Of a DNA stretch of 64,000 nucleotides, positions 10,175-56,925 are shown piece after piece. The stretch comes from Fibrobacter succinogenes. GTDB taxonomy: Bacteria > Fibrobacterota > Fibrobacteria > Fibrobacterales > Fibrobacteraceae. The DNA lies in NCBI GenBank assembly GCA_902779055.1, contig CACZAD010000002.1, positions 62,001-126,000 of the forward strand, given 5' to 3'. The translations under genes and the position numbers were made by a program. Below the pieces are notes generated by a model that did not search any database, was not told the DNA's origin, and saw only the letters and a program-made list of their open reading frames with translations. Each line of letters starts with the position of its first letter. Position 1 is the stretch's first letter.

Positions 10175-10222
10175 GAAGGCGATCCCGGCACAAGGCCGGG
10201 ATGACAAAAAAGCCGGGATGAT
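10175..10222. repeat. REP-like palindrome with partial second copy
   Basis: AGGCGATCCCGGCACAAGGC palindrome (CCCGGC...GCCGGG) followed by ATGACA, then a half copy GCCGGGATGAT. It sits downstream of the M41-like gene. Confidence 0.65.
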
Positions 10223-11381: not shown

Positions 11382-12245
11382 TCACTTTACCAAAGCAAGC
11401 AACTGTTCCTTGGTCACAAGGTTCAGTACCGAAAACGCCGTCATTTTACAGCCTAAATCCATAATCGAGGCCCCAACATGATATACAGTTTCGTCAACAA
11501 TGATAAATCTGTCGTGAACATCACGCATTGTCCGCAATACAACAGTCGGAAATTGCCGATTTATGCGGTCAACTTCATCGTTCATCGCACGCGTAATTCG
11601 AGCGGAATAAATGACGGCATTGACACCAGCAACTCGTTTTGCAACAAGCGAAAGCGATGTATCATTAGCAAACGGATCTATGATTATGATTTCTTTTTTC
11701 GCGGAGCGAACTAATTGCACTGCAAATTCATAACCGCTCCAACGAGCATTAGCTGGTATAACGCCCTCGCTAGGTGGAAGATTTGCTTTGACAAAGAAGT
11801 CCACCTGTTTTTCAAGGTTAACAACACGAGAATCCAAATTCTCGAGTTTATTTTCTTGAGAAATCAATCGTTGGTTAACACTATACCCCTTAAGCAAATG
11901 CTCTTTGAGAACTTGGTTCGCCCACCGACGGAATTGTGTACCTTGGATAGATTTTACTCGATACCCGACAGAAATGATGACATCGAGATTGTAGAAATTT
12001 GTAGGTTTGGTAGAAAAATCGGAATTTCCGATTTTTCTTACCGATTCATTTTTCAATATTTCACCCTCAGATAGGGCATTTAATATATGCTCGTTTATAG
12101 TTGAACGAGATTTCCCAAAAAGAAGAGCCATTTGATCAATCGTCAGCCATACTGTTTCGTTTTCAACTCGTACAGGCAACTGAATAGCACCTTCAGGCTG
12201 GTACATGATAATTTCACCATCTAATGATAAATTCTTCTTATTCAT
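11382..12245 (-). CDS. RhuM-like protein with C-terminal PLD-like domain
   Basis: 287 residues with a strong GGAGG four bases before ATG. Residues 15-125 match the RhuM virulence family: VWLTIDQMALLFGKSRSTI, NFYNLDVIISVGYRV and FRRWANQVLKEH. A short coiled coil (130-155) leads into a C-terminal domain with IIIIDPFAN and HDRFIIVD (244-251), a phospholipase-D-type HxRx4D motif, then YHVGASIMDLG. The RhuM part resembles phage/antirepressor DNA-binding domains; the PLD-like part could be a nuclease. A defence or selfish-element role is inferred, not shown. It is isolated, with a terminator just upstream. Confidence 0.75.
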   Translation of the reverse strand: MNKKNLSLDGEIIMYQPEGAIQLPVRVENETVWLTIDQMALLFGKSRSTINEHILNALSEGEILKNESVRKIGNSDFSTKPTNFYNLDVIISVGYRVKSIQGTQFRRWANQVLKEHLLKGYSVNQRLISQENKLENLDSRVVNLEKQVDFFVKANLPPSEGVIPANARWSGYEFAVQLVRSAKKEIIIIDPFANDTSLSLVAKRVAGVNAVIYSARITRAMNDEVDRINRQFPTVVLRTMRDVHDRFIIVDETVYHVGASIMDLGCKMTAFSVLNLVTKEQLLALVK

Positions 12246-12412: not shown

Positions 12413-13873
12413 TTACTTGCTTGCGTATGCAGCTTTTGCAGCCATGTCTGATGTCATATATCTGAGATCTTGTATAAGATTCGGATCCTGACCTCCGGAC
12501 AGCGAAACGGCCTCTTGCATAACGCGCAAGCCTTCTTCAGCCTGCCCGAGTCGATACAAGGCCAAAGCACGACCACCCATAGCATAAGTATCCATGCTAT
12601 TGATGTTCAAGGCCTTCTCGTTTGCTTCAAGGCACGATTCATAGTTGCCGCACATGAATTCGCTGTAGCCAATCGCCCTGTAAACATCGGCGTTATTGGG
12701 TTCCAGTTCTTGCGCACGCTTCAAAGCAAAGGAGGCTTCTTGGTAATTGCCCTGAGGAATCAATGCTTCGGCCAGTTTGAGCAAAGCAGAAGCACTGTCG
12801 CACTTGCCATACTTTGTTTCCTTTTCCTTTAGAGAAAGGTTGTATGCGCAATATTCATTTTCCTCATAAATGCTACCCTTCATCGTAAGACGCGTATTCG
12901 GGCAGCCGCCAAGGCACTTGGAACCATAAATACACTTTTTGCAAGAGCCAGAAAGTTTATCCTTTGTCATCTGGCGACGCCACAAGAAAGCATTTTCATC
13001 TTCCCAAATTTCACGTAGCTTTCTTTCGCGGATATTCCCTTCGATGAATTCCTTGGAACGAATCGAAGTACAGCCCAGAATATCACCGTTATGCAAAATT
13101 CCAAAACCGCGAATGCCCGCATTGCAGCCATTCCACAAGGAATAACCATTTGTCTTGTAGGACATACGCCTTGTTTCGAGGTCCTTCATTGAATAGTATC
13201 CAATACAATCCGCAGGATAGATATCGATCCTACCCTCTTTTGCCGTATCGTAGCAAAAATCAATGATATCCCTGACCTGTCTCGGTTCAAGGAGCCAATC
13301 AGGGCGTTCCTTTAAATTGCCCATAGGCAAACCGAGTTGAACCTGCCACGTGTCAACACCCATACGGATAAGTTCTTCCTTCAATTGCGGAAGAATATCC
13401 ATATTCTGCTTCGTAATCGTCGTGACGGCACCGGTCTTTATTCCCAATTCCTTCATCGCGGCGAAGGCCTGCCTTGCATGTTCAAAGGCACCTTTTTTCC
13501 TGATCTTATCATGGATTTCGGGCGTTCCGTCAATGCTTATCGCAACCGTGGCAATCCCATTCTCTTTTAACTTTTTTGCCATTTTTGCGTCAAGGAGCCA
13601 ACCGTTCGTGATCATATTCACGATGACGCCATTGCCAGAAAGACGTTTCACCAGTTCAGGCGTATCCTGTCTCGTAAGAGGTTCGCCTCCAGACAAGGTA
13701 ATCCATTTCAGTCCAATTTCAGCAATCTGATCACACAAATCAAGAGCTTCCTCGGTACTCAACTGTCCCGGGAGAGCGCCTTCACAAGAAGAACCACAAT
13801 GCCCACAGCGAAAGTTGCAGCCCATCGTTACTTCCCAGACTGCAGTGATGGGCTGATACCCAATATTTGCCAT
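12413..13873 (-). CDS. Radical SAM/SPASM enzyme with C-terminal TPRs (peptide maturase candidate)
   Basis: 486 residues. The radical SAM cluster site is C19-x3-C23-x2-C26, with SGGEP (61-64 region) for SAM binding. A full SPASM domain follows: C250, C268 (after G-x4), then C311-x2-C314-x5-C320-x3-C324, and C342, sites for auxiliary 4Fe-4S clusters. Residues 360-460 form about three TPRs, unusual for this class. No PqqD/RRE-like leader-binding domain is seen at the N-terminus, so the TPRs may hold the substrate (inference). It is 69 bp downstream of the KYGYPC repeat gene, its likely substrate, and has its own ribosome site (AGAGG, six T, ATG). Confidence 0.85.
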   Translation of the reverse strand: MANIGYQPITAVWEVTMGCNFRCGHCGSSCEGALPGQLSTEEALDLCDQIAEIGLKWITLSGGEPLTRQDTPELVKRLSGNGVIVNMITNGWLLDAKMAKKLKENGIATVAISIDGTPEIHDKIRKKGAFEHARQAFAAMKELGIKTGAVTTITKQNMDILPQLKEELIRMGVDTWQVQLGLPMGNLKERPDWLLEPRQVRDIIDFCYDTAKEGRIDIYPADCIGYYSMKDLETRRMSYKTNGYSLWNGCNAGIRGFGILHNGDILGCTSIRSKEFIEGNIRERKLREIWEDENAFLWRRQMTKDKLSGSCKKCIYGSKCLGGCPNTRLTMKGSIYEENEYCAYNLSLKEKETKYGKCDSASALLKLAEALIPQGNYQEASFALKRAQELEPNNADVYRAIGYSEFMCGNYESCLEANEKALNINSMDTYAMGGRALALYRLGQAEEGLRVMQEAVSLSGGQDPNLIQDLRYMTSDMAAKAAYASK

Positions 13874-13942: not shown

Positions 13943-14887
13943 TTAACAGTCAGACTTCTGCGAATCGCACTTGAAGCCGTACATAAAAGCAGCGTCTTTT
14001 TTCGACGTAGCATCTTGAACGCCGCAAGGATAACCATACTTCATCAAAGCCTGATCATTAGTGCCACAGGGATAGCCGTACTTCAAGGCTGCATCCTGCA
14101 CACCGCACGGGTAACCATACTTCAAGGCTGCGTCATTTGTGCAGCTCTTGAAACCGTATGCCATGGCAGCTTCCCTATTCGATGCAGCATCCTGAACGCC
14201 GCAAGGATAGCCGTACTTCATCAAAGGCAGTTCGCTTGTACCGCAGGGATAGCCGTACTTCAAAGCAGCTTCTCGATTCAAAGATGCGTCATTTGCGCCA
14301 CAGGGGTAACCATACTTCAAAGCGACATCCTGAACGCCACAAGGATACCCATACTTCACTACAGGAACTTCGCTTGTGTTGCAGGGATAACCGTACTTCA
14401 TCAAGGGAGCGTCATTTACACCACAAGGATAGCCATACTTCATCAGGGGAACTTCACTTGTGCTGCAAGGATAACCGTACTTCACAACAGCTTCTTGCGA
14501 ACCGAGAACAAGGCCATAAGGCATAGCCGGGCTGCTGACAGCTCTGATTGTTGCGTCAGTGTTTTCGCTAAACTTTGCAAATTCTTCGGAATCGCTCGGA
14601 ATCACATTCAGAAGCACGGTGTGCGTCTTTTTCGTAGCGGACATATCCGTCAAGTTTACCAGCGTGAATTCAAGTTCGGACTTGTCTTCCGTTGCGGAAA
14701 CAGCACCAAACCAGAATTTCTGGATAACGGGCGCAACCCCTGCTGCGGTCGGAGTAGTTTCTGTACTCAGCAGAGCAATTCCCTGCGGGAGCTTGGTCAG
14801 AGTCCAACCATAATTTGTGGAACCAAACATTGATTGCAGTTCAATCGAGAAGGATTGACCCTGTAATACAACCATTTCTTTTGCCAT
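13943..14887 (-). CDS. Multi-core precursor-like protein with ten KYGYPC repeats
   Basis: 314 residues, no signal peptide; AGAGG six bases before ATG. Residues 1-100 contain no Cys and resemble a chagasin/I42 beta-sandwich (GQSFSIELQSMFG, NYGWTL, QKFWFGAV), although the protease-binding loops are poor matches. Residues 136-307 hold ten KYGYPC copies at 136, 150, 164, 178, 191, 210, 224, 256, 269 and 283, plus variants AYGFKSC (243), MYGFKC (302) and a degenerate PYG (123). Spacing is 13-14, or 19 where NREAA is inserted. All 13 cysteines are in the repeats, and each KYGYPC Cys is followed by Asp/Glu at +4. Most likely a RiPP precursor for the adjacent radical SAM enzyme; a structural repeat protein is the alternative. 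Confidence 0.75.
   Translation of the reverse strand: MAKEMVVLQGQSFSIELQSMFGSTNYGWTLTKLPQGIALLSTETTPTAAGVAPVIQKFWFGAVSATEDKSELEFTLVNLTDMSATKKTHTVLLNVIPSDSEEFAKFSENTDATIRAVSSPAMPYGLVLGSQEAVVKYGYPCSTSEVPLMKYGYPCGVNDAPLMKYGYPCNTSEVPVVKYGYPCGVQDVALKYGYPCGANDASLNREAALKYGYPCGTSELPLMKYGYPCGVQDAASNREAAMAYGFKSCTNDAALKYGYPCGVQDAALKYGYPCGTNDQALMKYGYPCGVQDATSKKDAAFMYGFKCDSQKSDC
13967..14482 (-). repeat. Tandem 13-14-codon repeats encoding KYGYPC units
   Basis: Twelve tandem units of 39-42 bases (57 where an insert occurs). Lys is always AAG, but the Tyr, Gly, Tyr, Pro and Cys codons vary (TAT/TAC, GGT/GGC/GGG, CCT/CCC/CCG, TGC/TGT) so that all ten copies of the hexapeptide have a different DNA sequence and the same protein sequence. 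Confidence 0.9.
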
Positions 14888-56734: not shown

Positions 56735-56925
56735 AAACCGTGTAAGGCGATCCCGGAACGGAGTCCGGGATGACAAGCTGAATAAACCGTGTAAGGAGAC
56801 CCCGGCACGGTGGCCGGGGTGACAAGCTGAATAAACCGTGTAAGGCGATCCCGGCAAGGTGGCCGGGGTGACAAGCTGAATAAACCGTGTAAGGAGATCC
56901 CGGCACGGTGGCCGGGGTGACAAAA
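56735..56925. repeat. Four-copy REP tandem array, 49-base period
   Basis: Copies begin at 56735, 56784, 56833 and 56882. Each is AAACCGTGTAAGGCGATCCC or AAACCGTGTAAGGAGACCCC with CCGG.../...CCGG palindrome, then GTGACAAGCTGAATA. Palindrome centres differ (GAACGGAGT, GCACGGTGG, GCAAGGTGG). The period is exactly 49 bases. Confidence 0.9.

Follow-up and report, generated by a model that had tools for sequence, protein, structure and literature searches.

Known spliceases turn the residue X of XYG motifs into a ketoamide, C8H9NO being lost in net terms. MYG and LYG sites are substrates of PlpXY, and one of the tags tested contains RPLYGLPI (PMC10533398). One precursor may contain several splice sites (PMC10373908), and spliceotide products have been described as inhibitors of proteases (PMC10373908, PMC11117315). 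PMC10533398 also quotes a prediction of 939 systems by Scott 2022.

The gene pair described here lies within 64,000 nucleotides of Fibrobacter succinogenes DNA, referred to as the window. It consists of a gene for a repeat-bearing precursor protein and, directly downstream on the same strand, a gene for a radical SAM/SPASM protein (Table 1). The first-pass annotation had described the repeat array and had not tied it to the adjoining radical-SAM gene. The locus resembles the spliceotide systems typified by PlpXY of Pleurocapsa (PMC10533398, PMC11002830, PMC10373908) in that the XYG motifs have a variable X and often a Pro two residues past the Gly, that the radical-SAM/SPASM enzyme gene adjoins the substrate gene and that multiple sites per precursor are possible. 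It differs in that the leader has a predicted chagasin fold whereas those of plp are of the Nif11 or nitrile-hydratase type, that the enzyme has a TPR tail and no PlpY-like RRE partner (among ORFs of at least 80 aa in ten loci), and that tails of this type carry 6 to 20 sites with mostly Lys at X. Because splice tags function without a leader (PMC10533398), it is doubtful that a Nif11- or nitrile-hydratase-type leader defines the spliceotide class. By analogy with the known systems the pair is probably a spliceotide-type cassette in which a leader of predicted chagasin fold and a multi-site array are combined with an enzyme fused to TPR. The 939 predicted systems may already include this chagasin-type subgroup. 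Among the papers searched, none contained the string YGYPC and none 'chagasin' together with 'radical SAM'.

Table 1. Features of the cassette and their positions in the window.
Feature	Position	Strand	Basis
Precursor (putative substrate) protein, 314 aa	13943..14887	-	ORF; orthologues in 9 further Fibrobacter genomes
Predicted chagasin-fold (I42-like) leader/carrier domain, residues 1 to about 115	14543..14887	-	PF09394, AlphaFold2, Foldseek
PYG within PYGLVLG, first of the XYG sites in the tail	14513..14521	-	sequence
Ten-unit KYGYPC array, KYG = predicted splice sites	14024..14482	-	codon and pS/pN comparison, genome-wide pattern search
AYGFKSC, variant XYG site	14141..14161	-	sequence
MYGFKC, variant XYG site close to the C-terminal end	13967..13984	-	sequence
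Predicted splicease of 486 aa (radical SAM/SPASM protein, TPR region at the C terminus)	12413..13873	-	profile matches, orthologue alignment

Selection on the repeat units

The tail of the window precursor contains 13 Cys and thirteen XYG sites, comprising ten KYG, one AYG, one MYG and one PYG. The inventory of the first-pass annotation, ten KYGYPC units and two variants, was correct as far as it went and missed PYGLVLG. Its coordinates for the units, 13967-14482, were right at the upper limit, while 13967 is the end of MYGFKC. AYGFKSC and MYGFKC had been set apart as variants without Lys and Pro; a Lys is in fact present, at the Pro position, and both belong with the KYG units as additional sites of that kind.

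A codon table confirmed that the ten identical hexapeptides are encoded by ten different codon strings, with Lys as AAG in all ten and the other five codons variable as claimed. The codons observed permit 2x3x2x3x2 = 72 combinations, so that ten different sets among ten are not very surprising alone; the contrast between pS and pN is. Over the 45 pairs of units there were no nonsynonymous differences, giving pN 0.000 against pS 0.82, which supports the suggestion of purifying selection on each unit. By comparison, pN in the flanks was 0.38 for the four codons after the unit and 0.44 for the four before. A degenerate DNA pattern for KYGYPC occurred at 10 places in the 3,876,278-base genome, all inside the precursor gene, and the reversed control at none. 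Thus the peptide has been retained while the DNA drifted to near saturation. No exact internal DNA repeat of at least 25 nt was found in the window gene, and the earlier exclusion of recent duplication holds for this copy, though duplication acts in its relatives.

No signal peptide was visible by eye in the window precursor. A match of the precursor to PF06505 XylR_N (E 4.9e-8), in which no stretch passes alone, lies on residues 148-170, which are repeat units, and was set aside.

XYG as the conserved core

The array was compared with those of related precursors having the same leader type. A leader motif picked 42 rows, from which five duplicates (L063-L067; loci carry L numbers and genomes G numbers) and two rows with runs of N (L082, L094) were removed to give 35 distinct precursors, 10 from Fibrobacter and 25 from other loci. 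The motif missed L087, and neither member of L068/L069 or of L071/L072, two near-identical pairs, was removed. When each letter was left out in turn with the other five fixed, Y2 and G3 were found at 195/195 sites each, whereas K1 and Y4 were each found at 195/202, P5 at 195/223 and C6 at 195/216. For the Fibrobacter precursors alone the same procedure gave Lys at 83/83, though AYG, IYG, MYG and PYG sites are present. At the 377 tail YG sites X was K in 267 cases, P in 47, A in 18, I in 15, M in 10, D in 8 and a rarer residue (L, V, E, N) in 12. Degenerate sites without the Gly were rare, KYRYFC in L071 being an example. Because Tyr-2 and Gly-3 never vary in this comparison while Lys, Tyr-4, Pro and Cys do, the unit, as judged from the alignments, is XYG with flanking preferences and not KYGYPC. 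The proposal that KYGYPC is the functional unit is accordingly not supported; even orthologues of the same genus use KYGFPC, KYGYPV, KYGIPS and KYGYPD as well, and across the 35 precursors Y-G alone is unchanged.

Exact internal DNA repeats of at least 35 nt were present in 14/35 precursors, extending up to 101 nt in L035. Codon sets were all different in only 10 of the 27 genes with at least two KYGYPC units. These figures and the spread in the number of sites per tail indicate that XYG arrays expand by duplication and then diverge silently.

The adjoining enzyme

Pfam PF04055 and PF13186 matched the window enzyme over cut-off. C19, C23 and C26 of the radical-SAM CxxxCxxC motif and C250, C268, C311, C314, C320, C324 and C342 of the SPASM region were invariant in 10 orthologues, and omega against eight orthologues was 0.03 to 0.06. 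The AlphaFold2 model had a mean pLDDT of 57 and was usable for the TPR helices only. Among ten enzymes scanned, TPR were found in L088, L090, L097 and weakly in L103; they were not found in L096, L098, L100, L104, L105 and L115, which accompany short peptides.

The top NCBIfam match was TIGR04103, which we take to be IPR026482, with 228.6 bits, far below the equivalog cut-off of 725. It was followed by TIGR03913 with 199.8 bits and AhbD, which carries out other chemistry, with 194.6; PapB gave 74 bits (1e-20). As a positive control a plasmid-encoded protein of Nostoc (L114), the one TIGR04103 protein over cut-off in the comparison, scored 853 bits. Its gene adjoins a Nif11 precursor ending in LYGLPPELF, which fits the X-Y-G-hydrophobic-Pro pattern of the window units, and a 71-aa gene follows the enzyme gene. 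The window enzyme, by its score, is a relative and not a member of TIGR04103. In a tree of 58 enzymes (L063-L067, L069, L072, L109, L110 and L054 excluded as duplicates, near-duplicates or fragments) the window clade lay beside and not inside the TIGR04103/GDL group, with 13/55 inner branches open by the quick method used.

TIGR03913, a GDL-motif maturase found with DUF1843 peptides, is also alike in that two of the three peptides in Azospirillum L117 have an XYG close to their N-terminal end (MLYGG, KPYGV). In contrast to the window system, its peptides are short with at most one site each, the enzyme has another C-terminal region and the identity is 33%.

Five residues, Q177, Q179, M184, Y226 and G258, were found in 41/41 members of the window clade and 4/4 PlpX/GDL-like rows but in at most 1/7 other radical-SAM rows. 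They are compatible with a common chemistry without being specific to it, and they are no proof of tyramine excision because the enzymes of a sister clade, which accompany YAGP repeats, have most of them too.

The leader domain

PF09394 matched the window leader with E 0.00099, below the Pfam cut-off, and matched 8/31 leaders at E up to 0.1, the best being 4.4e-9. AlphaFold2 predicted a beta sandwich for the leader (133-residue model, mean pLDDT 79). The closest PDB structure found by Foldseek was the chagasin-family inhibitor EhICP2 (3m88); TMt values to EhICP2 and chagasin were 0.66-0.71, with chagasin 2h7w lower in the list at up to 0.70. The leader therefore resembles chagasin (I42) inhibitors in its predicted immunoglobulin-like fold, whereas it differs from them in its loops. 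The inhibitory loops of chagasin have the motifs NPTTG, GxGG and RPW/F, each of which was found in 0/31 leaders. Omega for the leader against eight orthologues was 0.09 to 0.22, higher than that of the enzyme. We read the domain as an inhibitor fold taken over to act as leader or carrier.

Proposed chemistry and its alternatives

The precursor would be a substrate protein in which the chagasin-fold leader is followed by 13 XYG sites, and the radical-SAM/SPASM-TPR enzyme would most likely be its splicease, binding it perhaps via the leader and the TPR tail. At each X-Tyr-Gly the tyramine part of the Tyr would be cut out and X joined via an alpha-keto amide to the Gly. The product would contain up to ten alpha-keto-beta-lysine residues from the KYG sites, with at most three of other kinds, and its tail would thus be one of keto-amides bearing Lys side chains. 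Keto-amide groups are protease-inhibitor warheads, so its likely role would be to inhibit proteases with a preference for Lys in the rumen or gut. This second step is less sure than the assignment as a spliceotide-type cassette, and we put it forward tentatively, at somewhat under an even chance. In favour of a splicease are the invariant Y-G with its variable X, the relationship of the enzyme to TIGR04103 and the LYGLPPELF neighbour of the Nostoc protein, the joint occurrence of the two genes, the XYG-bearing ORFs at most loci of related enzymes and the five shared residues. Several observations stand against it: the TIGR04103 score relative to its cut-off with AhbD not far behind, the place of the clade outside the TIGR04103/GDL group, the lack of a PlpY-like RRE among the ORFs covered, a Tyr without Gly in L105 (see below) and the sister clade with YAGP.

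The foremost alternative is that the enzyme performs other chemistry on the Tyr, such as a C-C or ether cross-link, cyclophane formation or oxidation, with Y-G serving for recognition. Radical-SAM/SPASM enzymes catalyse many such reactions (PMC8326336), and the sister clade has its YAGP repeats. Nevertheless, a variable X with a fixed Y-G is the published splicease motif (PMC10533398, PMC11002830, PMC10373908). Since the leave-one-out comparison also yielded no second fixed functional side chain for a cross-link, we consider other Tyr chemistry improbable.

The idea first entertained was a thioether array like that of the ranthipeptides, in which the radical-SAM enzyme would link the Cys of C-x3-D/E units to Asp or Glu, the pattern being that of PapA/freyrasin. 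All ten window units read C-x3-D/E, as do 179/256 Cys units across the 35 precursors, and PapB is itself a radical-SAM/SPASM maturase whose model matches the enzyme. Against this, Cys is missing at the corresponding place in 121 of the 377 YG sites; Y-G persists without Cys in most units of L040 and L042 and at the sites found in Cellulosilyticum (L103) and Ruminococcus (L096, L100); and the PapB score is well short of the 229 bits for TIGR04103. The pattern thus holds in the window but not across the family, and we judge a thioether array a little less probable again than other Tyr chemistry.

A structural or cell-surface repeat protein in which KYGYPC matters as such, through metal or thiol binding, and the neighbouring gene is coincidental would suit the number of Cys in the tail and the strong selection on the unit, but is very improbable given that Cys and Pro are dispensable and that the two genes are adjacent in 10/10 Fibrobacter genomes bearing the pair, in differing contexts, and likewise in distant phyla.

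If the proposed splicing is correct, the ten units would be the places where reactive keto groups are put into the backbone, and the density of beta-amino acids in one protein would be exceptional. Rumen fibre degraders and gut Lachnospiraceae would be able to make protease inhibitors ribosomally, a leader class would have been built on a protease-inhibitor fold, and the TPR-fused enzyme would be of use for many-site protein labelling. An odd codon pattern has in this way led to a testable enzyme-substrate pair. A more speculative picture, which we think unlikely as a whole, is that the entire protein is a poly-warhead inhibitor: the inhibitor fold would be the handle for an enzyme installing ten Lys-type alpha-ketoamides, the TPR tail a processive substrate holder replacing the RRE, and duplication the means of adjusting the repeat number. 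Fibrobacter and Butyrivibrio would then have exchanged the cassette in the rumen, where it would act against Lys-specific proteases as a weapon or a shield.

Distribution and neighbourhood of the cassette

Precursor and enzyme co-occurred in the same 10 of the 111 Fibrobacteraceae genomes searched. An eleventh, weak precursor match in G098 (E 7.9e-4) was rejected as a chance frame among simple-sequence Cys-rich repeats. Among ORFs of at least 80 aa in ten loci, none near the cassette was a conserved gene for a transporter, a protease or an RRE. When the phylum was searched with the enzyme alignment, two distant matches emerged, G149 and G129, the latter with 2 internal stops. YG was found near G149 in just two ORFs, once in each, and near G129 in none.

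Related enzymes were encoded at 51 loci in a single scan of species genomes, mostly in Lachnospiraceae, with Butyrivibrio relatives up to 82% identical and further loci in Bacteroides ihuae, Thiodiazotropha and others. The two-gene cassette itself is present in Lachnospiraceae, Bacteroides and Thiodiazotropha. Its transfer across phyla is likely because the Fibrobacter enzymes group in the tree with those of Butyrivibrio and one uncultured member of the Lachnospiraceae (SH-aLRT 100, quick method). An XYG-bearing ORF lay near the enzyme gene in 43/51 loci, a count that includes the single-site short peptides of L089, L098 and L104, which are weak evidence taken alone. The remaining eight were L077, which begins at a contig edge, L110 with none, L105 with PLYDIPP, and L106, L107, L108, L112 and L113, which belong to the clade with YAGP repeats. 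The proteins carrying XYG vary and include chagasin-fold proteins and, as labelled by eye, dockerin-like (L090), SLH-like (L091, L092) and short GG-leader types (L098, L100, L103, L104). In the Defluviitaleaceae/Oscillospiraceae loci L090:4441-4999, L091:4025-4973 and L092:4212-4983 the motifs are on secreted-looking dockerin-like or SLH-like proteins, which would place predicted splice sites on surface proteins.

At L105:4488-4634 a GG-leader-like peptide ending in PLYDIPPII, with Tyr-Asp replacing Tyr-Gly, was found near a related radical-SAM enzyme. Repeat proteins of the [V/I]YAGP type with 3 to 7 copies were seen at L106:4258-4969, L107:4471-4969, L108:4345-4969, L112:4311-4965 and L113:1961-2558, directly upstream of radical-SAM genes whose products are related to the window enzyme and form a clade of their own (VWEITLACCFSCKYCGS type). 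These are possibly another Tyr-modifying peptide system; the strings VYAGP and YAGPE matched just three papers, all unrelated by title.

In the window (11382-12245) and in G064 the cassette is followed downstream by a gene for a RhuM-family protein. This gene was not seen in the eight other loci, although the sequence of some of them stops shortly beyond the cassette. The sequence GGCCGGG[A/G]TGACA recurs in the window, always on the + strand, at 10194, 15106, 15150, 19622, 52942, 56812, 56861 and 56910, and there is a 49-base tandem array at 56735-56923.
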